DNA of 41,291 nucleotides from an uncultured beta proteobacterium (lineage in GTDB: Bacteria > Pseudomonadota > Gammaproteobacteria > Burkholderiales > Burkholderiaceae_C), in NCBI GenBank assembly GCA_903914615.1, contig CAIWPS010000779.1, forward strand, positions 1 through 41,291, given 5' to 3'. How positions within the stretch are numbered: the first letter of the stretch is position 1; each line of letters starts with the position of its first letter. Positions 19,558 to 41,291 of this stretch are shown here, piece after piece. Position numbers and translations under genes: made by a program. Below the pieces are notes generated by a model, which searched no databases, was not told where the DNA came from, and saw only the letters and a program-made list of their open reading frames with translations.

Positions 19558-21692
19558 TGCCATTGACGGTGCCATCAGAATTTGTACCCAGCGTGTCGAC
19601 GCAGCCTGCGCAAACGCCGCGCATGACGGCGCCGTTGGTGGTTCCTGGGCAGAACGATGCGCCGCAGTTGATTCAGAAGCTGGGTGCGGATGCGATGCAG
19701 GCTGGCACCACGATGCGGCAGATCGGGCAGACGATCGGCGATCGGGTTGCGCAGATGACGGACCAGGCGCAGATCAAGTCTGCCGAGAACCAGTTTCTTC
19801 AGTCCGCGATGCCGGTGCTGAGCAAGTACAAGACGACGGAAGGGATGGACGCAGCTCAGCAGTTCGACCCGGCGTCCCAGGCGATTGCCCAAGCGCGCGC
19901 CGATGCGGCGGATACGCTGACAAGTCCCAGCCAGCAGCGAGCTTTTGGCATGCTCGTCGACGCCCACGCGACAACGCTGGCGGCGCAGATGGCGGCGCAT
20001 CGCGACACGCAGCAGGTGCAGTACGGCAAGGATCAGTCCAAGGCGCGCGCGCAGAACCTGAACGCAACTGCGGCGCTGGACGTTGCCGGCCGCAACCGAA
20101 GCGACTCTATCTTTGCGCAATACGGACAAGAGTCTGACAACGAAACGCTGAACTACGCATCGCTGAGCGGCAACGCTCCCGATAGCGATGTGTCTCAGAA
20201 TGCGCTGCGTCTGAACCGCACCGATCGCTACACAAGCGTGATTACGTCGCTGCTGGACAAGCGGGCCTTCAGCGAGGCGCAGGACTTCTTTGACGAGCAC
20301 AAGGGCGAGATGGACATGAAGCGGGCCGAGGTGCTCGGCAATGCCGTCAAGTCGGCCTCGCAGCAGGTCCAGATCACGGACTACCGCGATCGGGCTGTCC
20401 AGAGCCTGCAGAAGACCAGCGGTCCGGGCCCACTGGCGCAGCCGATCCCGGCAGCGACCATCACCACGACCGATGACGGCAACGGCCTGTTCATTCATGA
20501 GGTGCCGGGCAGGGACGTGCATGCCCCTGCCAGCGGAACTGTGACCAAGGTATGGAACGACGACAAGTGGGGTCTGTCGGCGGAGATCGCGATGCCTAAT
20601 GGCTACACGGCGACCTTCAATAACCTGGGCGCGGTGAACTACAAGGAAGGCCAGAAGATCACGCAGGGCCAGCCTCTGGGGCTTACGGGCAAGACTGCGC
20701 AGGGCCAGGGCGGCGTCGCTTATGAGATCACCGGTCCGGATGGTAAGTACGTCGATCCGCGGCAGGCCTCCGGCAGCCCGTTCGACCCTTCTAACTTCAG
20801 CGCCCCTTCCGACGAGGCGAAGGCTGTCGAGTGGGTCAACGCGAACGTGGAGGATCCGCAGCTGCGCCGCGAAGCTGAGAACCAGGTGCGATCGCTCGCG
20901 AACACCAATCGAAATATCGAGAACCAGCAGCACGCGGCGGCGGTGAAGCAGGCGACGGATTGGTGGTTCCAGCACGGCACGATCTCCACCTTGCCGGCGG
21001 AGGTCAAGATGCAGCTGACGCCGGAAGACGTCGACAGCTTTAACCAGCAGGCCAAAGCGAAGAACGATGTGGACCTGCAGGCGAACTGGCTCGAGCATCC
21101 GGATCAGATGACCGTCGACGCTGTGCGGCAAGCACACGCGCAAGGGCGGCTGACGGATGCGGGTTACCTCTCGGCGCTGCGAAATGCCATAGCGATACAG
21201 CAGGACGCAAGTAACACCGATCCGCAGAAAGTACGTGCTGTGTCGGTGGATCACGATCAACTAACGGACCTTTTGACGATGAACCAGATGCCGAATTTGG
21301 CCATGCCAAAACAGGACGCAGACAAGCTACAGCGCGTGGAGCTCGAGACTGCGATCAAGAATGAGATCGATGTCCAGCAAGAGCGCAATAATCGCACGCT
21401 GACCTGGCAGGAAAAGGGAAAAATAGCGCGGGACATGATCATCGACAAGGTCTATACGCCGAGCCCGTGGTACTCGCCTCAAATGAACGAAGGCCTGAAG
21501 CCTGTCGCCATCGCCACTCCGGAAGAGCGGAAAAACGCGACGGTGTGGGTGGGTGATCAAAAGGTTCGCATGATGGATATCCCCCCGCAAGTTACGACGC
21601 AGGCTATGCAGGACTTGATGGCGAACAAGGTGCCGGCCACCCAGGCAAACATCGCGGCGTGGTGGATCAGGAAAGGAAAACCTGCACAGTGA
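19557..21692 (+). CDS. Internal virion/ejection protein (gp15-like position) with embedded degenerate M23/LytM-like domain
   Basis: Segment ~20478-20775: GRDVHAPASGTVTKVWN...YTATFNNLGAVNYKEGQKITQGQPLGLTGKTAQGQGGVAYEITGPDGKYVDP follows the LytM pattern but lacks the HxH. Confidence 0.65.
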   Translation: MPLTVPSEFVPSVSTQPAQTPRMTAPLVVPGQNDAPQLIQKLGADAMQAGTTMRQIGQTIGDRVAQMTDQAQIKSAENQFLQSAMPVLSKYKTTEGMDAAQQFDPASQAIAQARADAADTLTSPSQQRAFGMLVDAHATTLAAQMAAHRDTQQVQYGKDQSKARAQNLNATAALDVAGRNRSDSIFAQYGQESDNETLNYASLSGNAPDSDVSQNALRLNRTDRYTSVITSLLDKRAFSEAQDFFDEHKGEMDMKRAEVLGNAVKSASQQVQITDYRDRAVQSLQKTSGPGPLAQPIPAATITTTDDGNGLFIHEVPGRDVHAPASGTVTKVWNDDKWGLSAEIAMPNGYTATFNNLGAVNYKEGQKITQGQPLGLTGKTAQGQGGVAYEITGPDGKYVDPRQASGSPFDPSNFSAPSDEAKAVEWVNANVEDPQLRREAENQVRSLANTNRNIENQQHAAAVKQATDWWFQHGTISTLPAEVKMQLTPEDVDSFNQQAKAKNDVDLQANWLEHPDQMTVDAVRQAHAQGRLTDAGYLSALRNAIAIQQDASNTDPQKVRAVSVDHDQLTDLLTMNQMPNLAMPKQDADKLQRVELETAIKNEIDVQQERNNRTLTWQEKGKIARDMIIDKVYTPSPWYSPQMNEGLKPVAIATPEERKNATVWVGDQKVRMMDIPPQVTTQAMQDLMANKVPATQANIAAWWIRKGKPAQ

Positions 21693-24600
21693 GTACACCG
21701 AATCAGCCATTGAGCATAGCGCAGCAGATGCTGCATGAGGGCTCGTTGCCGGATATGCCGGATCAGTCCGGACAGCAGGTCACCGGAGTTCCGATGCGGG
21801 CGGTTGTTTCGGCGGTGGCAGCGACCGATCCTGACCGGGAGGCATACTACCAGCAGCTCGCGCAGCGAACTGGCATGGGTGTGGACCTGGTGCGCCATGA
21901 TCCCAAGGCGGCTCAACAAAGGGCGCTGAACGTGGATCTCGATCAACGCGATCTGGAGATTCGTAACCCGATCCTGGCGGACCAACTGCGTGACCCGAAC
22001 TTTGCCGGGGTGGCACACGACGATCTGGATAGCCTGACGCGGATTGACGAGGGCGCGATGCGGCTGCGGGCTATCTCTCAGAATCCCGAAGCGCTGAATG
22101 GGTTGACGCCGACTCAGCGGGAAGCGGTGATCGATGAGCGGACGCGGGTGGCGATGGAGCGCTACCGCAATGGGGGCGGGAACGGCTTTTGGAGCGGCGC
22201 ATACGCCGAGGCCAAGTCGGCGGCGGCCAGCTTCAACACCGGCGTAACGGGTTTTTTCAAACCGATCATTGACGATGTTGGCACGGGAATTGAAGACGCG
22301 CTGGATACACCCAAAGCGCTGATGGATGGCTTGACGGGGATCGACCCAAGTTTCCAGGGGTTGAAGAACGTTTGGGTGAGACCGCACGGGTCGGCGACGC
22401 GGGATGTTACGCAACAGGCGCAGGATTATCTGTCGGCTCCTATCCTCTCGGGACCGCAGAAGACGCTTATCGATCCGGTGACCAAGCAGCCGTTTGCGAA
22501 CCCGGACTACAGCGGGTGGGGTCGCGGTCTGGGCAACGCGGTGGAACAGGTGCCTGGACAGCTCCTGGCCTTATACCTGGGCGGGGGGGCGCTTGGAGCG
22601 GCGGGAGAAGCGGCCGGTGTAGATGGTGCGGCGGCGGCGGCCGAGGCCGGTTCAGGCGAAGCGTCGGCGCCCAGCATGGCGGGGGAGGCTTTTGCGCACA
22701 AAACTCTGCCAATGGTGCTTGGCACGCAGGCCGCGCAGACGACGTACGCCCAGGCTAGGCAAAAGGGAGCGGACCAGAAGACGGCTGCGATGGCCGCTCT
22801 GTACGCGGGCGTGGCCAACTACGCGTTCATGGGCAAGATGCCGGAGCCAGTTCCGGCGGAGAGCTTCGGGGGATTGGCTGGCCAATATTTTGCCCGTAGC
22901 GCGGCGTTTGGGACCGGCATGGCCGTGTCAGACAATGCGATCGCGCGGGGGAGTTACGATCCGGATCGCGGTTTGCTGGAGGATGTGCCGCAGTCGATCC
23001 TGCAGATGGCGGCTTTCGAGGGCCTGGGCGCGGGAGGCCAGCTTGCCGATCTGGGAGGCGAGGCGATCGCCCGCTGGCGCGGCCGCAACGCCGCCCCGCA
23101 GGCGCCAGCGGAGCCGACGCCGTTTGCGCAGACCATGGCCGATCAGGTGGCGGCCGTGGAGCAGTCGAAGCTGCGCGCCCGGTCGCCGCAGGATTTCCAG
23201 CAGTCGGTGAACCAGCAGTTCGAAGGCGACGCCAGCCTGCGGATTCCCGCGCAGGAGTTTGTGAACTACTTCGACGCGCAAAAGCTGGACCCGGCGATGA
23301 TGGCGAACCGGGTGGGTGTAAGAAATCTGGAGGAAGCTGCGGCGGCCGGGTCAGACCTGGAGATTCCGAGTGCGAAGTTCTTCGGGCAACTCGATCCTGA
23401 GCATCAACGCGGCTTGTTGTCGGATGTCGTCGATCCCATGACTGAGATGACGGCTCGCCAGGCGGAGCAGCATCGCGCGGAGCTGCAGGAGTTCCTCGCC
23501 AACGGCGGTGTGAGCAAACTGATGGAGGATGCGCGCCAGGCGGACGCAGAGACGCAGGCCACGCCCGGCTGGCAGGCGGTGAAGGATGAGATGCGGCAGC
23601 GCTACGTCGAAGCCGGGGTGAGCGAGCGCGAGGCGGAGGATAAGGCCACGCTGGACGCGAATGTGCATGCGAACCTGGCGCGCGAGGCTGGGTTGACGCC
23701 CGAAGAGCTGTTTCATTCGACGAACCCCAAGGTCAAGGTCGGGGATGCACCGTCGAGCTCGGAGATCCCGACTCATCAGCAGCCGTGGTACCAGTCCGCG
23801 ATCGACGGAATACGGTCTGTGGTCGCAGCTGCGAAACAAAAGGGCGACGTAAAAAAGTGGACAAAGTATGCACCCGTCAGCGACTGGTTGCGTGGCGCAG
23901 CGAAGAACGTAGGTCTTACGCTGGATGGGTTCGAGCATGGTCTTGATGCAGATGCGGTGAGGCACGCGAATGCGGCGCATAGCGACGCAAAGTCTGAAAA
24001 AAACAGAGGGTTAGTAGCGATAACCGATGAGGATTTTGAGAAGATCCCGCTAGTGGTGTCGGAGCCGGACAGGGTTGTTTTTGGCGCAAAAAGCGGGGAT
24101 GGACTAGATCAACTTTTCTATATCAAGAAAATGAATGACGGCTCGATTGTCCATGTCGAGGAGGTGCGAACGGGCCGGAAAAGACTCGCAGCCGTTTCGC
24201 TGAGAAAGCACCCCGCCGCGGCCAATATTGACAAGGTCATTACCAACCTAGACCACAACGTCCGAAACGACGGCGGGCGTACTCCCCTGATTGTAGTAGA
24301 CGGCCCGGGAGCAGACAAGAGCGAGGGGGCGGCTGAGCCGGGGAAGACGCTATATCAGTCTCGCTCCCCGATCGGGGGCGCCGACGGGAAACAGTCCACG
24401 CTGCTGACGCCGGGTGGCAAACTGCCCGCGAAATACCGCCTGGTGGAGGCGGCAGACCTGATTCCATCGCACAACCCTCAGACATTTGCGGTGAACGGCG
24501 ACTACCCGCAAGGCGTGCAGGAGCGGGCCTACGACAAGAGCAAAGAGGCGCAGGCGCGGGTGATCGACCAGGCGCAGAACTATGAGCCGGCGTACACAAT

Positions 24601-27600
24601 CAACACGAATCCGGACGCGGTGAACGGGCCGCCGGTGATTACCCCGGATGGCACCGTGCTGGGCGGCAATTCGCGCACGATGAGCACGGTGAGGCTTTAC
24701 CGCGACGGCAAAGGCGATGTGTATCGGAACGCTCTCCGCGAACAGGCTGGCGACTACGGCCTGAAGCCGGAAGAAGTGGACGCGATGAAGGAACCGGTGC
24801 TGGTGCGGCAGGTGCAGGCACCGCAAAGCGTGGACGCCATGCGGCGGCTGGGGACGGACCTGAATCGCTCGATGACCGGGGCGCTAGGCGCGACGGAGAA
24901 GGCTGTGAGTGTCGGCAAGAACCTCAAGCCGGAGACACTGCGTTGGGTCTCGGATGAGCTGAATGCCGGCGACATGACGCTGCGGGAGATGCTGGCGGCG
25001 CGCGGCGGGGAAGTACTCAAGCGGTTTGTGCAGGACGGGGCACTGACCGAACGCGAACGGCCGCAATACATCGACAGCGCAACGGGAGGCCTGAATGAAT
25101 CAGGCAAGGCGTTTGTCGAGAAGGCGCTGCTCGGTTCCGTGTTCGACGATCCCCGGCTGATGGAGTCCGCGCCTAAGTCGATCGTGGCCAAGATCGAGCG
25201 ATCGCTGGGGGCGATTACGTCGTTTGCATCCAGGGGGGATGCTTGGAACATCGTGTCCGCGCTACGCGAAGCCATCGACGAGCATGGGTCGATCCAGCGC
25301 AGCGGCTCAACGGTCGAGGACCGGATCGGGCAAACGTCGTTGTTTGGCGAGGAGCGCAATCCGCTGGTCGATGCTCTGGTGCGAGTGCTGGCTAGCAAGC
25401 CGAACGCAGTGAAGGAGGCATTCGACGCCTACGCGCGCGACAGCGACGAGAACCTGCCGGGCCAGAACAGGATGTTTGGCGAGGCGAGCGCATTCGATGC
25501 TTTCAATCACGCATTTGGGAGTAAACTTTCGGAACAGGAGTTTGAAGATGGACGCAGATCAGCAGACGAAAGCCACGGAGGACCGTTACCGGTCAGTTCG
25601 GGAAGCGACGCGCATCTACCTGTCGCATCCGCCGGGGATACGGGAAGCGGCGGTGAGGAACTACCACGCAGCGGAGGGGGATCGCGGGAGGCAGTTGCAA
25701 AGCCTGAAAGCGGCGGACTGGTGCCGGGAGCACAACCTGAACCTGCCGCCGCTGCCGAACCACTAGAGTCGATCCCGGATCATCCCTATGCGAGCCAGGA
25801 GACGCAAGCGGTCTCGGCCGAGCATGGTACCCGTACGCTAATACCCGGGACGCTCGGATGGATGCGACGGCTGCCGGATGGCTCGTTTGAGATCGGCAAG
25901 ACGAAGATCGGCAACTTTAGCACGCTGGTGCATGAGACGGCTCATATGTATCTCGAAACCATTCGCGACCTCGTCAAGCGGCCGGGGGCGAGCGATCGTC
26001 TGAAGGGTGACTACCAGAAAATCCTCGACTTCCTGGGCGCGAAGGATGGCGAGGATCTGACCACGGAACAGCATGAGAAGTGGGCGCGAGCCAATGAGCA
26101 GTATGTGCGCGAAGGCAAGGCGCCGTCTCCCGGACTCAAGGGTGTCTTCCAAAGGTTTGCCTACTGGCTGCATGGCGTTGACGGCCGCGCGAAGGATCTG
26201 GGAGTGGAGCTCGATCCGGAGACGCGCGGAGTGCTCGATCGTATGTACCAGTCTGAGCGCACTGTCGACCAGGCGGCGGAGGAGACCGGGCCATCGATGT
26301 TCAAGAGCCCGGAAGAGGCTGGCTGGACGGAAGCGGAATTCCAGAAGTACGCCGAGACCAAAGGCATCGGCGTTGACCAGGCAAAAGAGCAGGTGCGTGC
26401 AGAGCTGAATGCGGCCGCGGAGCGGGAGCAGACGGAGAGCCGGCGCGAAGAGCAGCGCAACGTGTACGACGCGGCCATGGAGAAGATTGACAAGCGGCCG
26501 GAGTACACGGCGATCCGCTCGCTGCGCAAGGGCAAGCTAGACACGGGCGAAGAGATCTCGCTGAATCGTGACCAGCTCGTCGAGCAGTTCGGCGAAGACC
26601 GCGTAAAGGCATTGCAGAAGGCGCATCCAGGTCTGTACCGGCTCGAGGGCGGAGCGGATGCGGAGTCGGTGGCGGAGATCTTCGGGTACCACTCGGCGGA
26701 TGAGATGCTGCAGTCGCTGACGGCAGCGCCGCGGCGCAAGGCTGCGATCGAGCAGGCCACGCGGGACTACCTGGTCAACAAGTACGGCGACGTGCGCTAC
26801 GACGGCACGCTGAATGACCGAGCCCGCTATGCGATCGAGAACAAAGAGCGCGGGGCGAACATCTACCGCGAGCTGCGGGCTCTGAAGGCCAAGGTAGCTG
26901 CGCTCGAAAAGAATGCGTCCGACGCGAAGGCGGCGATGGCGGGGATCGAGATCGCGCCGATGGATGCCTATCGCGCCGCGGCCAAGCAGATGATCGACCA
27001 GAAGGCGATCGCGGATCTGCAGCCGAGCCGCTACCTGGACGCGAGCCGCCGGTACTCGCGCGATGCCTTCGACGCGCTCCGGAGCGGCAACGTGAAGCGC
27101 GCGGCCGAGGCCAAACACAAAGAGCTGTTGAATCACTTCCTATTCCCCGAGGCGACGGAGGCGCGCGACTACGTCGACAAATTTGAGAAGTATGTGAAGC
27201 AAGCGGTAACGAGCAAGGGCATTCAGCAGCGGATGGCTCTGGCCGGCGGCGACTACCGGACGCAATTCAACTGGCTGCTGGCCCGCTACGGCCTCGCGCC
27301 GGCGGCTGAACCGCCTGGACGCAGTCTGCGCGCCTGGGCGGATGAGATGTACGACATGGGCAAGGAACCGGCCAATGCGCCGAACATCCTGGACAGCACG
27401 AAAGGCCGGAACTATCGCAACGTGCCCTTGTCGGAGATCCGCGACCTGCATGACACGTTGCTGAATATCCAGGCGCTGGCGCGGCAGGAGTTCAAGACCT
27501 TTGTGCAGGGCAAGCAGATTGTCTTTGCCGAGGCGAAGCAAGCCATGATCGACAGCGCCCGGCAGAATCTGCGCGAGAAGCCGGAGAAGGTCTTTGAGGA

Positions 27601-29611
27601 GAACCGGCCGGCCCTGGACAAAAAGCTGGATGGCTTGCGGTACGCGGACTCATTCCTGATTCGCATGGAGCGCATGATCGAGTGGCTAGACGGCGGAAAG
27701 TCGGGCCCGTGGCATGACAACGTTTGGAACCTGGCCTCGGACGCGCAAGGCGACGAGTACACGATGCAGCATCAGGTGACCCATGCAGTGACGGACGCGC
27801 TGGCCAACATGCCGGCAGAGATGCGCCGGCGGCTGTGGACAGAGAAGGTGAACGTGGAGGGCGTGGGAGAGCCACTGACGCGCCGTAGCCTGCTTTCCAT
27901 GGCCTTCAACATGGGAAACGAAGGCAACCTCGACCGGCTGCGAAAGACGTTCGTTTCTCACGGCTGGGATCCGGACGCTATCCAGCGCATCGGCGGCATG
28001 CTCACGCGCGAAGAATGGCAGTTCGTGCAGAAGACGTGGGACTCGCTGAAGCCGCTGGGCGAGCGTATGAACGCGCTCGAAAAGCGGTTGACGGGCCTGC
28101 CGCCGGCGATGGTGCAGCCGACGCCAATGACGATTCATCTAGACGGTGGCGAGACGCTGCACCTGGACGGCGGCTACTACCCGATCAAGATGGATCCGAA
28201 GTACTCGGACAAGGGCATCGCCCAGGATGCTAAGGAAACGGCGCAGAACGCCATGCAGTCGGGGTATGTGCGCGCGACTACATCCAAGGGCTACACGAAG
28301 GAGCGTACGGGCTTCGGCGGCCCATTGCTGCTGGATTATGAGCAGGTGTTGACCGATCACGTCGCGAAGGTGGCCAAGGATCTTTCGCATCGCGAATTCA
28401 TGCTCAGCACGCAGCGCCTGCTGCTGGATACGGAGGTGCGCAAAGCTCTGCGGGAGACGCTGGGCCCAGCCTACGAGGCGCAGTTAATGCCCTGGCTGCG
28501 CACGATCATCAACGACCGCAACGGCAGCGCCGTGCAGGGGCTCGGCAAACTGAGCAGCGCGATGCAGGCGCTGCGCGGGAATATCGTGGCGGCGTCGATT
28601 GGCTTCAAGGTGTCGACGTCGCTGCTGCAGATCACGCATGCGCCCAGGATGCTGCTGTACGCCAAACCGGGATCGATCGCGCAGGCGCTGGTCGACTTTC
28701 TGGCGCGGCCGCGCGAGATGACGCGGGAGATACAAGAGCTCTCGCCCAACGAGATGCGCTTCCGCGGCGATAATCTGGATCGTGACGTACGGGCCGTGCT
28801 GCGCGAGCCGAGCTACAAAGAGGGCTTCGCCAGGAAGGCTGCGCAGGCTGCGCGTTTTTCGCTGGCGACCGTCGACCATCTCTTCAGCCACACTCTGTGG
28901 AGCGCGGCGTACCGTGACGGGCTGGCAAAGTACGCCGATCTTCCCGAAGATGAGGCACAGAGCAAAGCTGTGCATGAGGCAGATAGCGCGGTGCGGCTGG
29001 GGCTTGGGACGCAGGCGCCGAAGGACCTGCCTGCGATCATGCGCAACAACGACTTCAATAAGATGATCACGACGCTGTACGGCTTCCACAACGGCGTCTA
29101 TAACCAGCTCCGCGACAATGCTCATCAATTCCGGTACGGCGAAGGAAGCGCGGCCGGCCGAGTAGGTAAGCTGACCTATGCGACGATCCTGACGGCGATC
29201 GTGCCGTCACTGCTGGGCTCGCTGGTGACGGGAGATGGGCCGAAGGATGGAGAGAACCCTGGGCTGTGGGCGGCGAAGAAAGCGCTTCTGTTCTCGGCCG
29301 ACACGGTGCCGGTGCTCGGCTCATTCGCGCACGCCGCTGTGGAGCGCCGCGACATGCAATTGACGCCGCTCGAAAATGTATTCACGAAGGCCGGCAAGGT
29401 GGCAATGGACGCAACTTCAGGTAAAGAGGATAAGGACTGGCTGGGCATTGGTCTGAATGCGGCCGAAGCTGCAGGGGATGTGGCGGGAGTTCCGGGATCG
29501 GGGCAGCTCGTTAAGACGTTGCGCTATGCGCATCGCGCTAACCAGGGCAAGATCGAAAACCCGAGCTGGTGGGATGCGATCGCGGGCGGAGGCAGCACGG
29601 CGCATAAGTAG
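21689..29611 (+). CDS. Giant (~2640 aa) polyvalent ejection protein: N-terminal HDD motif, PBECR-like nuclease, DdrB-ParB-like domain, HExxH zincin motif, LPD38-like C-terminus
   Basis: AHDDLDSLTRIDEG near the N-terminus; RVVFGAKSGDGLDQLFYIKKMNDGSIVHVEEVRTGRKRLAAVSLRKHP; YRLVEAADLIPSHNP...GGNSRTMSTVRLYRDGKG; LVHETAHMYLE; C-terminal NQLRDNAHQFRYGEG...TGDGPKDGENPG. GTG start 21689 overlaps the previous stop and has gaaagga upstream. Confidence 0.8.
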   Translation: MSTPNQPLSIAQQMLHEGSLPDMPDQSGQQVTGVPMRAVVSAVAATDPDREAYYQQLAQRTGMGVDLVRHDPKAAQQRALNVDLDQRDLEIRNPILADQLRDPNFAGVAHDDLDSLTRIDEGAMRLRAISQNPEALNGLTPTQREAVIDERTRVAMERYRNGGGNGFWSGAYAEAKSAAASFNTGVTGFFKPIIDDVGTGIEDALDTPKALMDGLTGIDPSFQGLKNVWVRPHGSATRDVTQQAQDYLSAPILSGPQKTLIDPVTKQPFANPDYSGWGRGLGNAVEQVPGQLLALYLGGGALGAAGEAAGVDGAAAAAEAGSGEASAPSMAGEAFAHKTLPMVLGTQAAQTTYAQARQKGADQKTAAMAALYAGVANYAFMGKMPEPVPAESFGGLAGQYFARSAAFGTGMAVSDNAIARGSYDPDRGLLEDVPQSILQMAAFEGLGAGGQLADLGGEAIARWRGRNAAPQAPAEPTPFAQTMADQVAAVEQSKLRARSPQDFQQSVNQQFEGDASLRIPAQEFVNYFDAQKLDPAMMANRVGVRNLEEAAAAGSDLEIPSAKFFGQLDPEHQRGLLSDVVDPMTEMTARQAEQHRAELQEFLANGGVSKLMEDARQADAETQATPGWQAVKDEMRQRYVEAGVSEREAEDKATLDANVHANLAREAGLTPEELFHSTNPKVKVGDAPSSSEIPTHQQPWYQSAIDGIRSVVAAAKQKGDVKKWTKYAPVSDWLRGAAKNVGLTLDGFEHGLDADAVRHANAAHSDAKSEKNRGLVAITDEDFEKIPLVVSEPDRVVFGAKSGDGLDQLFYIKKMNDGSIVHVEEVRTGRKRLAAVSLRKHPAAANIDKVITNLDHNVRNDGGRTPLIVVDGPGADKSEGAAEPGKTLYQSRSPIGGADGKQSTLLTPGGKLPAKYRLVEAADLIPSHNPQTFAVNGDYPQGVQERAYDKSKEAQARVIDQAQNYEPAYTINTNPDAVNGPPVITPDGTVLGGNSRTMSTVRLYRDGKGDVYRNALREQAGDYGLKPEEVDAMKEPVLVRQVQAPQSVDAMRRLGTDLNRSMTGALGATEKAVSVGKNLKPETLRWVSDELNAGDMTLREMLAARGGEVLKRFVQDGALTERERPQYIDSATGGLNESGKAFVEKALLGSVFDDPRLMESAPKSIVAKIERSLGAITSFASRGDAWNIVSALREAIDEHGSIQRSGSTVEDRIGQTSLFGEERNPLVDALVRVLASKPNAVKEAFDAYARDSDENLPGQNRMFGEASAFDAFNHAFGSKLSEQEFEDGRRSADESHGGPLPVSSGSDAHLPVASAGDTGSGGEELPRSGGGSREAVAKPESGGLVPGAQPEPAAAAEPLESIPDHPYASQETQAVSAEHGTRTLIPGTLGWMRRLPDGSFEIGKTKIGNFSTLVHETAHMYLETIRDLVKRPGASDRLKGDYQKILDFLGAKDGEDLTTEQHEKWARANEQYVREGKAPSPGLKGVFQRFAYWLHGVDGRAKDLGVELDPETRGVLDRMYQSERTVDQAAEETGPSMFKSPEEAGWTEAEFQKYAETKGIGVDQAKEQVRAELNAAAEREQTESRREEQRNVYDAAMEKIDKRPEYTAIRSLRKGKLDTGEEISLNRDQLVEQFGEDRVKALQKAHPGLYRLEGGADAESVAEIFGYHSADEMLQSLTAAPRRKAAIEQATRDYLVNKYGDVRYDGTLNDRARYAIENKERGANIYRELRALKAKVAALEKNASDAKAAMAGIEIAPMDAYRAAAKQMIDQKAIADLQPSRYLDASRRYSRDAFDALRSGNVKRAAEAKHKELLNHFLFPEATEARDYVDKFEKYVKQAVTSKGIQQRMALAGGDYRTQFNWLLARYGLAPAAEPPGRSLRAWADEMYDMGKEPANAPNILDSTKGRNYRNVPLSEIRDLHDTLLNIQALARQEFKTFVQGKQIVFAEAKQAMIDSARQNLREKPEKVFEENRPALDKKLDGLRYADSFLIRMERMIEWLDGGKSGPWHDNVWNLASDAQGDEYTMQHQVTHAVTDALANMPAEMRRRLWTEKVNVEGVGEPLTRRSLLSMAFNMGNEGNLDRLRKTFVSHGWDPDAIQRIGGMLTREEWQFVQKTWDSLKPLGERMNALEKRLTGLPPAMVQPTPMTIHLDGGETLHLDGGYYPIKMDPKYSDKGIAQDAKETAQNAMQSGYVRATTSKGYTKERTGFGGPLLLDYEQVLTDHVAKVAKDLSHREFMLSTQRLLLDTEVRKALRETLGPAYEAQLMPWLRTIINDRNGSAVQGLGKLSSAMQALRGNIVAASIGFKVSTSLLQITHAPRMLLYAKPGSIAQALVDFLARPREMTREIQELSPNEMRFRGDNLDRDVRAVLREPSYKEGFARKAAQAARFSLATVDHLFSHTLWSAAYRDGLAKYADLPEDEAQSKAVHEADSAVRLGLGTQAPKDLPAIMRNNDFNKMITTLYGFHNGVYNQLRDNAHQFRYGEGSAAGRVGKLTYATILTAIVPSLLGSLVTGDGPKDGENPGLWAAKKALLFSADTVPVLGSFAHAAVERRDMQLTPLENVFTKAGKVAMDATSGKEDKDWLGIGLNAAEAAGDVAGVPGSGQLVKTLRYAHRANQGKIENPSWWDAIAGGGSTAHK
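25548..25766 (+). CDS. Overlapping +1-frame small gene (72 aa) inside the giant ORF linker
   Basis: AGGAG at 25536-25540, 7 nt before ATG 25548; MDADQQTKATEDRYRSVREATRIYLSHPPGIREAAVRNYHAAEGDRGRQLQSLKAADWCREHNLNLPPLPNH; GC-rich third positions. Confidence 0.5.
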   Translation: MDADQQTKATEDRYRSVREATRIYLSHPPGIREAAVRNYHAAEGDRGRQLQSLKAADWCREHNLNLPPLPNH

Positions 29612-29613
29612 CG

Positions 29614-30210
29614 CTAGCGCGTGGTGGCGGCAGTGTGATGGTCGATCGCGCGCAGACGAGCTGCATTCACTTCGACGCGCGATAGCGCGTCGAGGTCATC
29701 ATGTGCACGTGCAGCGAACTCCGGATCTTGCATCTGCCGTGCGAGGATAGGTGACTTGGAAAGAAGTCGGCGCTGCTTGACTAAGGTCATCCTTGCGTAG
29801 AGTAAACGTAGACCTAAAGCAATGCAGAGGCATATAGCGAGCGCCAGCGGCGGCCACGTGCCTCGGTCGTATCTAAGTATCGACGCAAAGATGAGCAAGC
29901 CGACGCTGGTAGCTTGCAACGCCTGAGTGCCTCGGGACGGGGTGTTTCCTGAAAGATCGCCGATATGCGAAGCAGTTAGCCTGTTGAGCTTGCGTCGAAT
30001 TGCGAATCTCCGGATGCCATACCACGTGGCGGCCATGACAATCGCGAAAATCGCCATCGTAAATACATTGAACTGCTCGTCGCTCTCGAGGTTGCTCCAC
30101 CATTCAAGGGAGCTGATCACCGCGCGATAAGCCAGCAGGCCGGCAAAAACGCCTATAGCAATACCCAGTGAACGACGCACTTCGAAATGTTTCTGCAATT
30201 CCCTGCGCAT
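29614..30210 (-). CDS. Predicted 4-TM membrane protein with C-terminal ejection-protein-like HDD motif
   Basis: Start ATG at 30210 with SD GGAGG upstream; TM segments SLGIAIGVFAGLLAYRAVI, FTMAIFAIVMAATWYGI, ALQATSVGLLIFASILRY, PPLALAICLCIALGLRLLYA; C-terminal SPILARQMQDPEFAARAHDDLDALSRVEVNAARLRAI. Confidence 0.75.
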   Translation of the reverse strand: MRRELQKHFEVRRSLGIAIGVFAGLLAYRAVISSLEWWSNLESDEQFNVFTMAIFAIVMAATWYGIRRFAIRRKLNRLTASHIGDLSGNTPSRGTQALQATSVGLLIFASILRYDRGTWPPLALAICLCIALGLRLLYARMTLVKQRRLLSKSPILARQMQDPEFAARAHDDLDALSRVEVNAARLRAIDHHTAATTR

Positions 30211-30248
30211 TGGCTTTTCCTCCGGAAGCGACAGTCTAACATGACTCA

Positions 30249-30280
30249 TACCCGTATCTTTCTACAACTAAAGCACACTC
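30249..30280 (+). promoter_or_regulatory. Promoter-like bipartite element, copy C
   Basis: TACCCGTATCTTT...GCACACT; same 24-bp offset as copies A and B. Confidence 0.5.
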
Positions 30281-30301
30281 TTTTTGGGAGAGTGCTGCGG
30301 G

Positions 30302-33283
30302 ATGACGATCACTTCGACTTCGCGGGTGGCGGGTCCTTTTTCGGGAACAGGGTCGACCGCTTCATTTCCATTTACCTTCAAGGTGTTTCAGCAGAGTGAC
30401 CTGTACGTAGCGCTGCTGGATTTGACCGGCGGCGCGATCACTGTGCTGGCTCTGACGACGGACTATACCGTTGCGTTGAACTCCGATCAGGACACCAATC
30501 CCGGCGGATCGGTGACACTGACGACGGGCGGCCAGGCGGGCGGCGTGCTGGCGACAGGGTTTACGCTCACGATCACCTCGAGCATGGCTGCGTTGCAAGG
30601 CGTGGACCTGTCGAACGGCGGCGCCTTCTATCCGGATGTGATCAACCAGGCGCTCGATACTCTGACGATCTTGATCCAGCAGCAGAACGATACTCTGCAG
30701 CGCACGATCGTCTTCCCGCTGACGGACGGCAATCCCCCGGCGTTCAGCACGACGCTGCCGTCTGCGCCGGCGCGCGCGGGCCTGATGCTCGGCTTTGACA
30801 GCAGCGGCGACCTGGCGACATACAACTCCGTTCCGGAGCCGGGTCCCCAGGGTTCCCAGGGTCCCCAGGGGACACCGGGGCCGGCCAATACGCTGGGTAT
30901 CGGTACGGTTGCGACGGGTGCGGCAGGAAGCTCCGCAGCAGCCACAATCACCGGTGCATCCCCCACGCAAACGCTGAACCTAACAATTCCTCAAGGGATT
31001 CAGGGCATCCAGGGCATACAAGGCGCACAGGGCGTACAGGGCGTAGTCGGCCCGAGTGGTGCATCCTTGAACTATCGCGGCGCGTGGAGCAGCTCTACGA
31101 CCTACGCGCTCAATGATGCGGTCTCGGTTTCGAGCGTGCTGTACGCAAGCATCCAGGGTTCGAACCTGAATCAGAATCCGTCGACGGCAACGACGTACTG
31201 GGCGATCTTCCCAGCGCCGACGCTCTCGACCTCCATCCCGCCGATCGCGTCCGGAAGCGGTTCGTCCGGTTCCGCAGCTACGGCAGCCAAGGGCGACCAC
31301 GTTCATCCAACGGAGGTCACCGGCGTCGCAATCGCTCCTGCGTCGATCGCCGCAACCGGAAACATCGCCTCGGCCGGCGTCATCACGGATATGGAAATCG
31401 TCACACTGAGACAGCCCAACAGGCTCAACCTTGGGTGGGCGGTTCAAGACGTCAACGGCAATGTTGCGCTGGGTGTGACCAACACGGGTGCTGTCATCGG
31501 AGTCAATCAGCTTCCGACAGGCGCCACGATAAGCGGGTCTGATCTCACGCTGCCGGGCAATCTGTTCCTACCCAACGGCCTGCTCTCCGACGGTGAAATC
31601 GTCTCCATCAGTCCTTACAACTACCTCGGCCTTGTCTGGGCGTTCATCGACAGCACGTACCAGGTAGCGTGGGGCATCACCAAGGCGGGCACGCTCTATA
31701 TTCCCGCGCCTTCGTCCTCGGCAGCCATCACAGCCAGCGCGGCCGCGCCGCTCAATCAGACGGGCAATCCACTCGCGCCCAATGTCGATAGCCTGAGTTT
31801 CTATTACGCTCCGGACGGCAGTGCGGTGCAGCAAGTCAGCCGTGTTGCTGAGGTTACCGCTTCCACCTTCGCGGTTGCGACGGGTGCGGCTGTTTCTTCG
31901 TCCAGGGCGGCCATTCCGATGACTACCGACTCAAGCAACCACAACACGCAGCCTTCGCCCAATCAGGATGCGAGCTGGATCACCTACCTCAAGACTCCGA
32001 CGGCCGGAGGCGCGCCCACGATCATGAAGATGAATCGCTGGGGTCAGCACAAGATTCCGATGACCACGGGATATGAAAAGCTCTTCGCGTTATCCCATGT
32101 GCTTATCGGTGGTCAGAGCCTGGCGGACGGTGCGGCGTCCACGGCGATCAGTCTTGCCCAGCCATTCAGCAATGTAATGTTCAACGCAGGCGTACGGCCT
32201 GGCGGCAATGCAGGTCCAACCGTTCCGGCCATGCCTGCGCCGACCTCGATCGTCCCTCTTGTTGAACAGACCGACGCGACAAACGCCTATGGCGAAACCA
32301 TCGCATCTGGTTTCGCCAACACGGTCTATCAGTGGATGGCAGAAGCTGGCATCCTCATGCCTCTGCTGTTATCTGACTGGGGCGTCGGAGGCTTCGCGTA
32401 TGCCTCGCTCGCGAAAGGTACGCAGCCATACGCCAATGGCCAGGCGCAGGTCTCGGGAGGGCTGAGCTTGTTCTCTGCTGCGGGATATGCATCCTATGGC
32501 GTGCGCTCTCTGCTCTGGGTGCATGGCGAGGCGGATGCATTCACTGCCGCGTACGATGCGAACCTTGCAACGATGCAGGCGAACTTCGAGGCTGACACAC
32601 TCGCGCTGACCGGGCAGCCCACGAATATCCCCATGTTCCTCTGCCAGACATCTGGCCTCTGCTCCTATCCCGTGGCAAACGGTCTGCTGCCGACAACGAT
32701 CTTATCGCCATATCTCCAGTTGCAGGCAGCCATCAACAATCCTGGAAAGATCGTTCTCACCGGGCCTAGTTACATGTGCCAGTACAACACGGGTCCGAGC
32801 CCGCACATGATCGCCCAGGGCTACCGTAAGCAGGGCGGATATTTCGCCAAGGCATTCCTCAAGCAAGTCTTCCAGAACGAAGCGTGGAGGCCTCTCTCGC
32901 CTCGCAAGATCGTGCGCGACGGCTTGAATATCTATGTTGATTTCTGGGTTCCGGTACCGCCGATCCGGATCAACGTTGCCGACGTGATACAGCCAACCTG
33001 GGCTGGAAGCAAGTATGGCTTCGAATACTTCGATAGCAGCGCCACGCCGCCAGCAATCAGCGCCGTGAATGTGATCGGCCCGACGACGTTGCAAATCGTG
33101 CTTGCGTCGGTGCCTACGGGGAGTAACAAACAGCTCCGCTACGCCTATACATTCACGCAGAATACGCAGCCTGGTCCTACCACGGGGCAGCGCGGCAATC
33201 TCTGTGACTCCGATACCGCAACTAGCTGGTATGGCGATGCTCTGCCTAACTGGTGTGTCCACTTCAATCAGGCGATCAACTAA
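30302..33283 (+). CDS. Tail fiber/spike: T7-fiber-like N-terminus, two collagen-like segments, C-terminal SGNH/sialate-O-acetylesterase-like domain
   Basis: TSTSRVAGPFSGTGSTASFPFTFKVF; GPQGSQGPQGTPGP and IQGIQGIQGAQGVQG; LIGGQSLADG, DWGVGG, LLWVHGEADAF, SPHMIAQGYRKQG blocks. Confidence 0.8.
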   Translation: MTITSTSRVAGPFSGTGSTASFPFTFKVFQQSDLYVALLDLTGGAITVLALTTDYTVALNSDQDTNPGGSVTLTTGGQAGGVLATGFTLTITSSMAALQGVDLSNGGAFYPDVINQALDTLTILIQQQNDTLQRTIVFPLTDGNPPAFSTTLPSAPARAGLMLGFDSSGDLATYNSVPEPGPQGSQGPQGTPGPANTLGIGTVATGAAGSSAAATITGASPTQTLNLTIPQGIQGIQGIQGAQGVQGVVGPSGASLNYRGAWSSSTTYALNDAVSVSSVLYASIQGSNLNQNPSTATTYWAIFPAPTLSTSIPPIASGSGSSGSAATAAKGDHVHPTEVTGVAIAPASIAATGNIASAGVITDMEIVTLRQPNRLNLGWAVQDVNGNVALGVTNTGAVIGVNQLPTGATISGSDLTLPGNLFLPNGLLSDGEIVSISPYNYLGLVWAFIDSTYQVAWGITKAGTLYIPAPSSSAAITASAAAPLNQTGNPLAPNVDSLSFYYAPDGSAVQQVSRVAEVTASTFAVATGAAVSSSRAAIPMTTDSSNHNTQPSPNQDASWITYLKTPTAGGAPTIMKMNRWGQHKIPMTTGYEKLFALSHVLIGGQSLADGAASTAISLAQPFSNVMFNAGVRPGGNAGPTVPAMPAPTSIVPLVEQTDATNAYGETIASGFANTVYQWMAEAGILMPLLLSDWGVGGFAYASLAKGTQPYANGQAQVSGGLSLFSAAGYASYGVRSLLWVHGEADAFTAAYDANLATMQANFEADTLALTGQPTNIPMFLCQTSGLCSYPVANGLLPTTILSPYLQLQAAINNPGKIVLTGPSYMCQYNTGPSPHMIAQGYRKQGGYFAKAFLKQVFQNEAWRPLSPRKIVRDGLNIYVDFWVPVPPIRINVADVIQPTWAGSKYGFEYFDSSATPPAISAVNVIGPTTLQIVLASVPTGSNKQLRYAYTFTQNTQPGPTTGQRGNLCDSDTATSWYGDALPNWCVHFNQAIN

Positions 33284-34195: not shown

Positions 34196-34477
34196 GTGGA
34201 TGCGGATGCGCGGCATTACCAAAGCCAGCTGCACGAGATGAATCAGAAACGCATGGATGCGCAGGACGAGAAGCTCGATCTGATCCTGGAATCCGTGTCG
34301 CGGAACGATTCGCTTCATGAGGAGTTTCCGAAGCTCGTCGAGCGCGTTGGCAATCTCGAAAAGCAGCGGGAGTTTGGCAGGGGAGTTATCGCCGCAGTTG
34401 CGCTGATCGGCGGTATTACCGGCAAGTGGACCGGGTCTCTTGTGGAGTGGTGCTTTCACCATTGGTCTGGCAAGTAA
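34196..34477 (+). CDS. Small coiled-coil + single-TM protein (holin/hemolysin-XhlA-like)
   Basis: QDEKLDLILESVSRNDSLHEEFPKLVERVGNLEKQ followed by GVIAAVALIGGITGKWTG; GTG start. Confidence 0.45.
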   Translation: MDADARHYQSQLHEMNQKRMDAQDEKLDLILESVSRNDSLHEEFPKLVERVGNLEKQREFGRGVIAAVALIGGITGKWTGSLVEWCFHHWSGK

Positions 34478-34500
34478 CTCAACGGGAAAAGGAGATAAGA

Positions 34501-35337
34501 ATGGAATTGCTAAGCAATATCGTCAGTCAACCCAAGACCTCGATCGCGGGGCTCTTGATTGGAATCGCAACCGTCGCCGGCGTGCTCTCGCAGCAGGGCG
34601 TCACGCTCGGGACGGCGGGCAAAGGCACAATGGTCGCGCTCATTGGCGGCATCGCGGCCGCGCTGCTGGGGCTCATTTCGCAGGATCCGGGTGCTTCGCA
34701 GCGTTCGTCGGCCGGTCCAGCGTTGGGGTCTTCGTCCGGAGCTGGCAGCGCGCAGAAGCTGGGCGTGCTCGTGCTCTGCTCGATCGTACTCATGGGATCG
34801 ATGATTGGCTGCTCGGCCGCCGCGGTTGCGCAGGACATCGTTAACTTCACGCCCCCGCTCGAGTCGGCGATCGCCACGGTCGACACCACGGCGAGCCTTC
34901 TGCTGCCGGCGGACGCACCGCTCTTCGCCCTGGTAACCGCGGGCCTGGATGCGGCGATCAATGAACTGGACGCGCAGGCGAAGGCTTACCTGGCCAATCC
35001 AAACGCCGGAGTCCTGGCGGCGCTGCAGAACGCGGCCGTGACTGCCCAGCAGACGGTCAACGCATCGCTGTTGAAGGCGGCCGGGATAAAGGACTCGGCC
35101 AGTCAGACGCACGCGCTTGCCGCAATCAATGGAGTGGGCACGATCGTGACGGCGATCCTGGGACTCGTGCAATCGATCTCGAGCAAGTCGCAGGTGGCTC
35201 AGATGGCGGCCAGGTCGCCCATCAAGCTCGCCCAGGTGCGTCAACTCCTGGACGAACGGCAGATGGCTGAAGTCGCCCAAAGCTACGGGATAACGCCGGA
35301 TGTGTTCCTAGCCAGGGAGGCCGCGGCGGGGTTCTAG
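34501..35337 (+). CDS. Membrane protein with holin-like N-terminus and lipobox-like third hydrophobic segment
   Basis: TM-like TSIAGLLIGIATVAGVL, TMVALIGGIAAALLGLI, then LGVLVLCSIVLMGSMIGC; SD aaaaggag. Confidence 0.5.
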   Translation: MELLSNIVSQPKTSIAGLLIGIATVAGVLSQQGVTLGTAGKGTMVALIGGIAAALLGLISQDPGASQRSSAGPALGSSSGAGSAQKLGVLVLCSIVLMGSMIGCSAAAVAQDIVNFTPPLESAIATVDTTASLLLPADAPLFALVTAGLDAAINELDAQAKAYLANPNAGVLAALQNAAVTAQQTVNASLLKAAGIKDSASQTHALAAINGVGTIVTAILGLVQSISSKSQVAQMAARSPIKLAQVRQLLDERQMAEVAQSYGITPDVFLAREAAAGF

Positions 35338-36041: not shown

Positions 36042-36102
36042 ATGAGTGTACTACTCATATTCTTTTATTCTTGTGTCGTATTGTGTTGCATCCGTACACA
36101 AT
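36042..36102. promoter_or_regulatory. Inverted-repeat operator-like sites between RHH and integrase genes
   Basis: ATGAGT-gtact-ACTCAT (36042-36058) and ATTGTGT-tgcatccgt-ACACAAT (36080-36102). Confidence 0.45.
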
Positions 36103-36170
36103 CCGCGATACAACAGACGAACGGGCCCAGATTGGCGAGTGTCCGGAATCCTAGCCGGAGGCAATCACCC

Positions 36171-37382
36171 GTGCGTCCAACATCCCTTGCAGCTTTAACT
36201 TACAAGCACACGACTGGGCACCTCGATTGTCCGGCGTGCGATAGGATGCGTTTCTTGGGGCGGCAATTAATTACTCCCGACATGCTTTTCATGGATGCCT
36301 TTGAGGCGTGGATCTCGCAGCGAGTTATGGCTGCGCCGGACAATGTCACCCTGGTCCTGAAGCCAGTCAAAGCCCGCTATCTTGCGCCTCGGACCATCAA
36401 GGATTACCGGGCTACGGCAGCGGCGCTGAATAAATTCTTCGCGAAGCTGAAACTGGGCGAGATCCATCAGGGACACCTGGCCCAGTACCAGGCCGCGCGA
36501 GCTTTCTGCGACGTGTCGGCTTGCGTCGACGGCCGCTGGGAAAAGCCGTGTGGGTCCAACCGCATCCGCAAGGAGATTGATCTGCTGGTTCGCATCCTGA
36601 GATCGGCAAAACTTTGGGGCGACGAGCAGAAGGAAGACTTCGTGCGCGTCCGCCGAGAAGAGAACGACGTGCGGCGAGCGCTCACGCCGGAGGAGCAGGC
36701 GCATTTCCTTCGCACGGCCGCAAGCCGGGAAGACTGGCGCTTCATTCTCTGGTATGCGTGCGTCGGCCTGCAGACGGCCGCGTCGACCGACGAGTTGAGA
36801 AATCTCCAGATCGGCGACGTCTCCGTCGGCCGGCGTGGTTTTGAGATGATCCATATCCGCTGGAAGTCTGAGGGCGTCAAGAATAAATACCGGGTGCGTC
36901 CGGTGCCGCTCGAGGGGCAGGCCGTCTGGGCAATGGAGAAACTGATCGAGCGCGCGGGCAAACTGGGCGCCAGTCAGTTCCACCATTACCTCTTTCCGCT
37001 CGGCGCGCGCGGCGGTCATTGCTACGATCCGGAGCGGCCTATGACGGAATCGGGTTTGAAGAAGCGCTGGGAGGCGGTTCGCACGGCTGCCAATCTTCCC
37101 TGGCTGCGTCCCTACGATCTGCGCCACACCGGGATTACCAGAATGGCGGAAGCCGGCGTCCCTGTCGAGGTCGCCATGTCGATGGTCGGGCACATGACCC
37201 TGCAGATGCACCGGCACTATACGGCGATCTCCGGCAACTCGCAACGCCGCTGGATGAGCGCGACCTGGGGGTCGAATCCAGCCCACGATGAGGCGGAATC
37301 CGGCAGGAAACAGCCCTCCGGCGCGCGGAAGTCGAATCAAAGTAGTAGCGCTTTTGTACAGAAACTTCCGAAGCGCGCCTAA
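36171..37382 (+). CDS. int: Tyrosine recombinase/integrase
   Basis: LRPYDLRHTGITRMAEAGVPVEVAMSMVGHMTLQMHRHYTAI (HxxR...H...Y). ORF is open from 36042, but the first ~43 codons are hydrophobic/atypical and overlap palindromes, so the true start is probably GTG 36171 or ATG 36246. Confidence 0.88.
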   Translation: MRPTSLAALTYKHTTGHLDCPACDRMRFLGRQLITPDMLFMDAFEAWISQRVMAAPDNVTLVLKPVKARYLAPRTIKDYRATAAALNKFFAKLKLGEIHQGHLAQYQAARAFCDVSACVDGRWEKPCGSNRIRKEIDLLVRILRSAKLWGDEQKEDFVRVRREENDVRRALTPEEQAHFLRTAASREDWRFILWYACVGLQTAASTDELRNLQIGDVSVGRRGFEMIHIRWKSEGVKNKYRVRPVPLEGQAVWAMEKLIERAGKLGASQFHHYLFPLGARGGHCYDPERPMTESGLKKRWEAVRTAANLPWLRPYDLRHTGITRMAEAGVPVEVAMSMVGHMTLQMHRHYTAISGNSQRRWMSATWGSNPAHDEAESGRKQPSGARKSNQSSSAFVQKLPKRA

Positions 37383-37740: not shown

Positions 37741-38454
37741 ATGACGATTCTCGGCGTCCATGCTCCCTGCGATCCGTCGCGGCTTTCCGGCCCTGATATC
37801 GCACAACCGCTTGTCGCCCAACTGATCGATTCCATCGATAACCGTTCGCAGGCAGCTGGGCAGAACCTCGAGTTCCTGCTGGCCCGTTTGCTGTTTGCCG
37901 CGCGCGGGCTTGCCAACGCCCACATCAAGTCGTCGCGCCCGCTGGAGTACGAAGAGCCGCTCGTCTACTGCGACGAGTGCCAGCATGCCGCGCTCCTAGA
38001 CAAGCTGACCCACGCGCCGAGCTGCAGGACCGGTAGCGTGCTGGAGATCCTGGCGTGCATCTGCGAAAGCAGGCCAGCCACTGGGAGGCCCGTCCCCAAT
38101 CGACGCAGGGAGGACGCGTGTGCCGCGGATAACGCAGGCCTGGAATATGGCGAGCCTTGGGAGGCTGGCTGGACTGACCATCTGACCCGGGCCAACGTTA
38201 TTTCGCTCTTCAGTGCCGAGGGTTATCGCCTCGCCGATTTAGCGGGCGCGCCGGCAGAGGCTCGGGAGCATGCGGAGCGTGTCGCCGTCTGCGTGAACTT
38301 CTGCGCGGGGATCTCGACTGAGACTTTGCGGCATGAGCTGCCGCTGGCCTCGGCCGATCGCCGGCGATGGAGCGAGATCCGGCATCTGAGAGTTGCGTTG
38401 CCCTGGCTGCCTGTGCTGCCGACTGAAGCCGATGATAAGGCGGTGCTCCTGTGA
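37741..38454 (+). CDS. Hypothetical protein with Cys-rich motif
   Basis: SD aaggag; YCDECQHAALLDKLTHAPSC; C-terminal AERVAVCVNFCAGISTETLRHELP. Confidence 0.6.
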   Translation: MTILGVHAPCDPSRLSGPDIAQPLVAQLIDSIDNRSQAAGQNLEFLLARLLFAARGLANAHIKSSRPLEYEEPLVYCDECQHAALLDKLTHAPSCRTGSVLEILACICESRPATGRPVPNRRREDACAADNAGLEYGEPWEAGWTDHLTRANVISLFSAEGYRLADLAGAPAEAREHAERVAVCVNFCAGISTETLRHELPLASADRRRWSEIRHLRVALPWLPVLPTEADDKAVLL

Positions 38455-40169
38455 CGGCCTCCGCGGCGGCGGCCGCACCAACCAATCTTGAGGTGATCGA
38501 CATTCCTCTCGGCGAGCTGTCGCCTTCGCGGTTTAATTCGCGGGCTATCAAGGAAGACGACAAGCTTCGCGAGCTGGCCGACTCGATCCGCACGGGCGGT
38601 GTCAACCAGCCGATCATCGTCCGCGAGGTACCGGTAGAGGGCGACGTGATCGAGTACGAGATCGTCGCCGGGCATCGCAGGTTTCATGCTTCGCGGCTGG
38701 CCGGGAAGGGAACGATTCCGGCGATCATCCGCGAGCTTACAGATGACCAGGCGCGCGAGCTACAGATCACCGAGAACCTGCATCGGGAAGATCTGGATCC
38801 GCTCGATGAGGCGCGCGCTTTCAATGAGGCGATGACGTTTGCTTCGCTGAAGCTGCTAAGCGTTCAGGAGCTCGCCGCGCGCCTGGGCAAGAGCCCGGTT
38901 TACATCAGTCGGCGTCTGACGCTACTCGATGCGATCCCGGCCGTCCAGGATGCTCTGCGGCAACGCCTCATTGAAGTGGGCCACGCGCTTGATCTTGCGA
39001 GGTTGCAGGAGGCTGAACAGCAGCGACTGCTCTACTGGCTCGGCGTTGTGGAAGAGAAGGACGATGTGGAAGCCGGTGAGGACAACGACGAGGATGAGTA
39101 CGAAGACGAGGAGGAGGAAGAGGAAGACGATGAATCTCCACTTGTCGCGCAGGATGCCGTTCGTTTCGTAACGACGCGCTCGGTGATCGATCTGCGCAAG
39201 CACATCGGGCAAACCGCGCTGCGAGTTCTCGGTACCGCGCCGTTCGATCCCGGCGATGCCGATCTCGATCCGGAGGCAGGGAGCTGTGCCGACTGCCTGA
39301 AGCGCACGGGCGGCAGTCCGCTGCTGTTCAGCGATGTGAGCGACCAGGACGTCTGCACTGATCGTGCGTGCTTTGACGGGAAGATCAAGACCTTAACGGC
39401 GCGCCGTATTGCCGAGGCGAAAGCTGCCGGGAATGAGCTGATCCAGGTTACAACCGACTGGCAGAACAAGTCGAAGGGCGGCGCTCGCTACCAGCATGAC
39501 GTCGACATTGTGGGCCGCTATGGCTGCGCACCTTGCGAAGCTTCGCAGCCTGGCATCTATGTCGACGGCAAGTCGGTGGGCAAACTGATCCAGGTCTGCG
39601 TTCACAAGACCTGCCCGATTCATAAGGGCCGTAATAATTCGTCGAGCACCGGAGCTGATCCGAAGGCAAAAGAGAAGCGGAAGGCTCTTCTGGCTAAGGT
39701 CAAGGCGGAGAAACAATACCGGCTGCAGCTCTTCAAAGAGTTGATGGCGAAGCCGATCGCGCCGGAGCCCACCGATGCAATGGTGAAGGCGCTCGTTGGG
39801 TTCGCTTTTACCCGCCTGGACAGCACGAAGTACCAGGTGATCGAAGAGGCTCTGGCGTGGCCGAAGGGTTCTTTCGGCTGGGCTGGCGATAAGAATCGCG
39901 CATCGCGAATGGCTGCGTTGACCCAGGCGGATGCGATCCGGATCGCGCTGGTCGCACTCGGAGCCAATGAGCTCACGGTTCATGAGCAGGAGCTCGAGGC
40001 AAAGAGGAACAACGGCAACGCCCGCGTACTCGGGCTGGAAGAGGTTGCGAAGATGCTGGGCGTCGACGTAGCGCCGGTCCGAGAGCGGTTCTTTCCCGGC
40101 GCCATGCCGGCGGCCGCTAAAGCTGTGCCGGCGAAGAAGGCCGCGAAGAAGAAGGTGATGCGCAAATGA
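38451..40169 (+). CDS. ParB/RepB/Spo0J-family protein
   Basis: IPLGELSPSRFNSR, ELADSIRTGGVNQPIIVREV, EIVAGHRRFHASRLAG, ITENLHREDLDPLDEARAF, VQELAARLGKSPVYISRRL. Confidence 0.9.
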   Translation: MTASAAAAAPTNLEVIDIPLGELSPSRFNSRAIKEDDKLRELADSIRTGGVNQPIIVREVPVEGDVIEYEIVAGHRRFHASRLAGKGTIPAIIRELTDDQARELQITENLHREDLDPLDEARAFNEAMTFASLKLLSVQELAARLGKSPVYISRRLTLLDAIPAVQDALRQRLIEVGHALDLARLQEAEQQRLLYWLGVVEEKDDVEAGEDNDEDEYEDEEEEEEDDESPLVAQDAVRFVTTRSVIDLRKHIGQTALRVLGTAPFDPGDADLDPEAGSCADCLKRTGGSPLLFSDVSDQDVCTDRACFDGKIKTLTARRIAEAKAAGNELIQVTTDWQNKSKGGARYQHDVDIVGRYGCAPCEASQPGIYVDGKSVGKLIQVCVHKTCPIHKGRNNSSSTGADPKAKEKRKALLAKVKAEKQYRLQLFKELMAKPIAPEPTDAMVKALVGFAFTRLDSTKYQVIEEALAWPKGSFGWAGDKNRASRMAALTQADAIRIALVALGANELTVHEQELEAKRNNGNARVLGLEEVAKMLGVDVAPVRERFFPGAMPAAAKAVPAKKAAKKKVMRK

Positions 40170-41072: not shown

Positions 41073-41242
41073 TGATCCGCTCGGGCCGCCGGAAAATCCG
41101 CGACCGCAATAAGCTTGCGGCGTCCGAGAGCGCCGCGGGGCGGCGATGCCGGTGGGTGAAATATCTGCGTCTGGCCGCCATAAGTGCGCGCCTTCCAGAC
41201 CAGTTCCGCCGGCATCGCCGCAGTAAGAAAACGCAAGTGTGA
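41069..41242 (+). CDS. Small basic hypothetical protein crossing the circular junction
   Basis: ATG 41069 overlaps the preceding stop; MMIRSGRRKIRDRNKLAASESAAGRRCRWVKYLRLAAISARLPDQFRRHRRSKKTQV; 3' end lies in the duplicated 131 bp. Confidence 0.4.
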   Translation: MMIRSGRRKIRDRNKLAASESAAGRRCRWVKYLRLAAISARLPDQFRRHRRSKKTQV

Positions 41243-41291
41243 AAGCGCAACTGTGAACCGCGAGGGAGATGCGATGCAGGACGAATTACGG
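41161..41291. repeat. Exact terminal direct repeat (copy 2)
   Basis: Identical to 1-131. Confidence 0.97.

Follow-up and report, generated by a model that had tools for sequence, protein, structure and literature searches.

Organization of the phage genome

The window, i.e., the whole stretch of 41,291 nucleotides that was analyzed, is an entire contig with a 131-bp direct repeat at both ends (positions 1-131 and 41161-41291) and therefore probably represents the complete genome of a phage, assembled as a circle. On the plus strand it encodes a giant polyvalent ejection protein of 2650 amino acids (21659..29611) with LPD22, PBECR3 and ddrB-ParB domains. In tblastn searches this giant was homologous to Bbp10 of BPP-1 and to the equivalents in the Pseudomonas phages UFJF_PfDIW6, AF and others; homologues were also found in Xanthomonas and Caulobacter phages. 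The LPD22 domain is located at its N-terminus (21809..22075, plus strand; Pfam profile positions 8-93 of 97, E 2.4e-13). Neither the N-terminus nor the C-terminal part matched a solved structure. A head-tail adaptor, a major head protein and an internal virion protein are also encoded in the window, and the tail-fibre gene (30302..33283, plus strand) starts with the ATG at 30302, where the conserved fibre N-terminus (alignment A5) was matched.

The phage is temperate, since it encodes a tyrosine integrase (36042..37382, plus strand; Pfam Phage_integrase, E 3.2e-16), and the carrier of the gene described below is a BPP-1-like temperate podovirus. This integrase-bearing phage additionally encodes a ParB-like protein of 572 amino acids (38451-40169; ParB_N, HTH_ParB) with a possible role in partition or regulation, and a DUF5131 protein at 2122-3429 (E 1.8e-94). 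ORFs with hydrophobic segments, located after the fibre gene on the plus strand (34196-35337), are candidates for lysis genes; a PHROG search with them gave no match.

A small membrane protein with half of an LPD22 domain

The giant and the fibre gene enclose an accessory slot (29612..30302) which is occupied by a minus-strand gene at 29614..30210. With an upstream ATG the ORF would reach position 30249. Since a conserved promoter element, treated below, lies at 30241-30233, translation more likely begins at 30210, where a Shine-Dalgarno sequence (GGAGG, already noticed in the first-pass annotation) directly precedes the start codon; the product then has 198 amino acids.

The product is predicted to be an inner-membrane protein with four transmembrane (TM) helices and positive-inside charges. 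The four helices and a basic N-terminus had been proposed before, and hydrophobicity, modelled helices and charges all support them. AlphaFold places helices at residues 2-40, 43-86, 96-115 and 119-152, followed by the tail helices 154-161 and 163-197, the latter two with a pLDDT of about 88-96 in a model whose overall pTM is only 0.39. Five Lys/Arg residues are found at the N-terminus, seven in the second loop and five in the linker after the fourth helix; the first loop is acidic (no Lys/Arg, four Asp/Glu). Four TM helices with this N-in/C-in charge pattern would therefore place the C-terminal motif on the cytoplasmic side, and the predicted topology thus agrees with the location that the first-pass annotation had assumed.

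The tail (residues 153-198; 29617..29754, minus strand) represents the second half of LPD22. It had been described as an unnamed motif copied from the N-terminus of the giant and covering the last 40 or so residues. The copy and its C-terminal position hold, as does the count of 23 identical residues in the 37-residue stretches at 29644-29754 (minus strand) and 21965-22075 (plus strand); the motif does have a name, being the C-terminal half of LPD22, and the tail is rather about 46 residues long, beginning at about residue 152-153. Pairwise BLASTP of the small protein against the giant gave 27/52 identities (E 3e-13). The Pfam profile of LPD22 (PF18834) matched the small protein at positions 49-92 of 97 with an E value of 1.3e-8 and 35.4-36.3 bits; both the small protein and the giant exceed the gathering cut-off of 28.6 bits. 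The first half of the domain (about positions 1-48) is absent from the small protein, which hence does not hold the whole domain. Across the 5.88 Mb assembly these two proteins are the only ones that match LPD22. The tail scored between 131 (own giant) and 138 (best relative), compared to a mean of 35 for the shuffled small protein (0/1000). The N-terminus of the giant was modelled poorly (mean pLDDT 57), with helices at the same places as in the tail of the small protein.

No relative of the whole 198-aa protein was found in viral contigs or GTDB genomes. In 301 genomes of the family it was matched only weakly and in its hydrophobic part, and in phage records all matches were to LPD22, none of them spanning the whole protein. 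Foldseek comparison of the model with BFVD and PDB returned no neighbour, and searches of PADLOC defence models, PHROGs and Pfam assigned the protein to no defence system and no superinfection-exclusion family.

Divergence of the tail from the giants

The tail of the window protein is about equally close to the giants of relatives (22-27/41 identical residues) and to its own giant (23/41). At the codon level, 27, 28 and 8 of 41 first, second and third positions are identical between tail and own giant; taking all giants compared, the ranges are 27-30, 28-30 and 8-13 of 41. For the giant of the window and those of three relatives, 20-27 third positions agree. Third positions of the tail have thus diverged more than among the sampled giants, and therefore the copy either predates the divergence of these giants or stems from a distant, unsampled donor giant. 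On account of the same divergence, an origin by very recent duplication of the phage's own giant was rejected. The protein sequence of the tail appears to be preserved, which could reflect selection acting in the slot gene or in an unsampled donor phage.

An accessory slot between giant and fibre genes

Relatives of the locus were collected as 80 viral contigs by means of the tail-fibre N-terminus. Seven of the eight phages with the most similar fibres encode a small minus-strand membrane protein in the gap between giant and fibre genes, with lengths of 97 (L060), 98 (L061), 115 (L062), 96 (L063), 109 (L064), 145 (L065) and 167 (L066) amino acids; the eighth, L067, has no slot gene. Giant and fibre genes are separated by only 20-84 bp, with no gene between them, in 67 of the 80 contigs; among the rest, two contigs lack upstream sequence and four contain something else on the plus strand or are unclear. 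In BPP-1 and UFJF_PfDIW6 the giant and the fibre or spike genes follow each other without a gene in between, and the slot gene is likewise missing from prophages of GTDB genomes in which a fibre of this type lies beside a giant. Judged by gene order, the slot gene is an accessory gene inserted between genes which are contiguous in relatives, as expected of a moron, an accessory gene with a promoter of its own.

The membrane cores of the slot proteins are distantly related to one another (L061 against the window, E 1.6e-5), with a closer group made up of L060, L062, L064 and L065; for L063 and the core of L066 no clear relative was detected. Several phages have in common a two-TM core to which varying tails are attached: coiled-coil, Pro-rich or LPD22. 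In L060 and L061 the minus-strand unit includes a second gene (4450-4896 in L060, 4475-4951 in L061), located upstream of the one for the membrane protein. Its product of about 150 amino acids is secreted or lipoprotein-like, 62% identical between both phages, and matches no Pfam family.

Integrase genes were found in seven of the eight genomes with an occupied slot (six of seven contigs and the window), the exception being L062, whose contig of 38.8 kb is perhaps incomplete. Among 19 others only four encode an integrase (four of the 18 tested relatives whose slots are empty or of another kind, none in the L067 fragment). The association between integrase and slot occupancy (Fisher p 0.0025) is confounded by kinship.

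A candidate promoter element conserved at the slot

Just upstream of the slot gene we identified an extended -10 element, TGTTAGACT (TGnTARACT; 30233..30241, minus strand), which occurs a single time in the window on either strand. The same element precedes the minus-strand slot unit in L060, L061, L062, L064, L065 and L066, where it is found once per locus and always at the slot; its background across 72 other fibre loci is 0.01 per kb-strand. L067 with its empty slot does not contain it, and L063 likewise lacks the exact motif. A consensus promoter scan requiring a -35 hexamer found none for the slot gene. Extended -10 promoters need no consensus -35. Downstream of the gene (29400-29614, minus strand) a simple scan detected no terminator-like site. 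By its sequence, the slot gene has a candidate dedicated promoter, conserved at the slot in seven genomes.

Recurrence of the LPD22 tail

Recurrence of the motif in other small TM proteins beside giants had been named beforehand as a check on its meaning, and such a case was found in the slot protein of L066. This protein ends in ELETKNPILARQLSEQK (longer stretch ...EQRELETKNPILARQLSEQK) and contains the LPD22 segment NPILARQL, the copy being only about 16 residues long. Its ungapped score was 65 against the giant of L067, the phage with the empty slot, and 57-61 against the giants of the window, L060, L061 and L064. Against its own giant, which reads HPRTAAWMMNPD at the corresponding place, it scored 26, compared to a null mean of 34; none of 1000 shuffles reached 65. 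A general mimicry by slot proteins of the giant encoded in the same phage was tested and rejected. In the L066 phage the clade-typical NPILARQL is retained in the slot protein while the giant (L164) has a divergent LPD22 at its N-terminus (HPRTAAWMMNPDNASVAHDD); this difference could stem from a swap of the giant or from avoidance of self-targeting. A degenerate DNA pattern for E..NPILARQL matched six stretches in 2.9 million viral contigs, namely four giants of the clade, the L066 slot protein and one unrelated protein.

LPD22-derived tails are thus present in two of eight occupied slots, one of them resembling the giants of other phages and not its own. Comparison of the other six slot proteins with giants, scored against shuffles, gave no convincing LPD22 match, and therefore the copy is not essential to the overall role of the slot. 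In L062 (4592-4936, minus strand) the slot segment PTWSPTVGERVKSFFSSRGG resembles PTWQDKVSDAAQNAFEFMGG, which lies just after LPD22 in the giant of the same phage (p 0.04, not significant once multiple testing is taken into account). Nearly all other LPD22 matches in this study were located at the N-terminus of giants of about 1,700-3,600 amino acids. Two open frames of 336-352 amino acids (G396 and G268) contain the whole domain and were set aside, since they are not membrane proteins of the slot type.

Possible function of the slot proteins

SieA of phage P22 is an inner-membrane protein which is expressed from the prophage and prevents related phages from injecting their DNA; mutations in the ejection proteins gp16 and gp20 allow escape, and SieA occurs in types less than 30% identical to each other (PMC10883804). 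The slot protein resembles SieA in its setting, being small, with several TM helices, and encoded by a podovirus that is temperate. Unlike SieA, the 198-aa protein has no FxRYPxEAxxFNK motif and matches no superinfection-exclusion family in Pfam, PHROGs or PADLOC searches, its tail was copied from a domain of an ejection protein, and exclusion is in this case a proposal from sequence. It also differs from the usual LPD22 proteins in having only half of the domain, attached to a small membrane protein. Exclusion proteins of the HK97 gp15 type are small membrane proteins encoded by prophages and presumed to act on DNA entry; they are not known to carry a copied virion module. Among the open-licence papers searched, titles and abstracts revealed no exclusion protein built from an ejection-protein fragment.

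With slightly more doubt than confidence, we propose as the best-supported reading that the gene of the window is a SieA-like superinfection-exclusion moron which is expressed during lysogeny and displays a module of the ejection protein in the cytoplasm as a decoy. Host RNA polymerase would transcribe it from the extended -10 promoter, yielding a small inner-membrane protein whose LPD22 half-domain tail, copied from a giant of the group, would face the cytoplasm. In a lysogen the tail would bind the normal partner of the giant's N-terminus of an incoming related phage, be it another copy of the giant or a host or ejectosome partner. In this way it would bring the ejectosome, and with it the entry of DNA, to a halt, similarly to P22 SieA. 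The sequence itself shows the gene, its homology to the giant, the slot, the conservation of the promoter element, the recurrence in a second phage and the association with integrases; expression in the lysogen, the block and the decoy mechanism are what we infer here. Against a decoy count the copying of only half a domain, the lack of a convincing LPD22 tail in six of eight slots, and a possible enzymatic nature of LPD22, which Iyer and colleagues, who defined it, list among possibly enzymatic domains (PMC5512222).

The varied tails on a common two-TM core and the majority of slot proteins without a convincing LPD22 tail (six of eight), as well as the addition of a secreted protein to the minus-strand unit in two phages, would also suit a different explanation, namely that the TM core does the work, in lysogenic conversion or exclusion, and that the LPD22 tail is incidental, e.g., a stable cytoplasmic cap acquired by recombination. 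We consider this unlikely though credible: LPD22 tails occur twice, in frame and at the same C-terminal place of differently built proteins, and the second one does not match its own giant.

Phages recombine freely, and the L066 tail is short, with its stop codon abutting the 3' end of the giant gene. The tails might thus be functionless relics, i.e., pieces of a giant gene that became joined in frame through illegitimate recombination. The presence of two in-frame cases and the conserved promoter element make this quite improbable, and so does the preservation of first and second codon positions in the window tail (27-30 of 41, third positions 8-13), an argument which needs there to be no unsampled donor phage.

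The neighbourhood of slot and giant genes and the similarity of the window tail to its own giant would fit a regulator of the own phage, which holds the giant or its partner at the membrane in late infection and thereby times packaging or neutralizes a toxic ejection protein. Such a role is very unlikely, given the opposite strand, the separate candidate promoter, the absence of the gene from most relatives and an L066 tail that matches its own giant below the null mean. A holin, antiholin or other lysis protein, as small multi-TM proteins and a weak match of the L064 slot protein to a holin PHROG (E 1.8e-4) might suggest, is judged highly unlikely, since the gene has its own candidate promoter on the opposite strand, many relatives lack it, and candidate lysis ORFs are located elsewhere on the plus strand.

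Implications for BPP-1-like phages

Under the exclusion reading, slot proteins may keep a further, related phage from delivering its DNA. A broader proposal, which we regard as rather unlikely, is that temperate phages assemble exclusion proteins from an exchangeable small membrane anchor and a piece taken from the ejection protein of a competitor; if true, a change of specificity could be achieved by copying the sequence of the target itself. Inner-membrane exclusion proteins acting on ejection proteins are already known. A slot protein bearing a copy of the target presumed for it would supply a rule of target recognition that can be read directly from the sequence, and in addition a handle on the role of the N-terminal LPD22 of the giants. 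The slot between giant and fibre genes of BPP-1-like phages is accordingly a place in which further exclusion genes may be sought.
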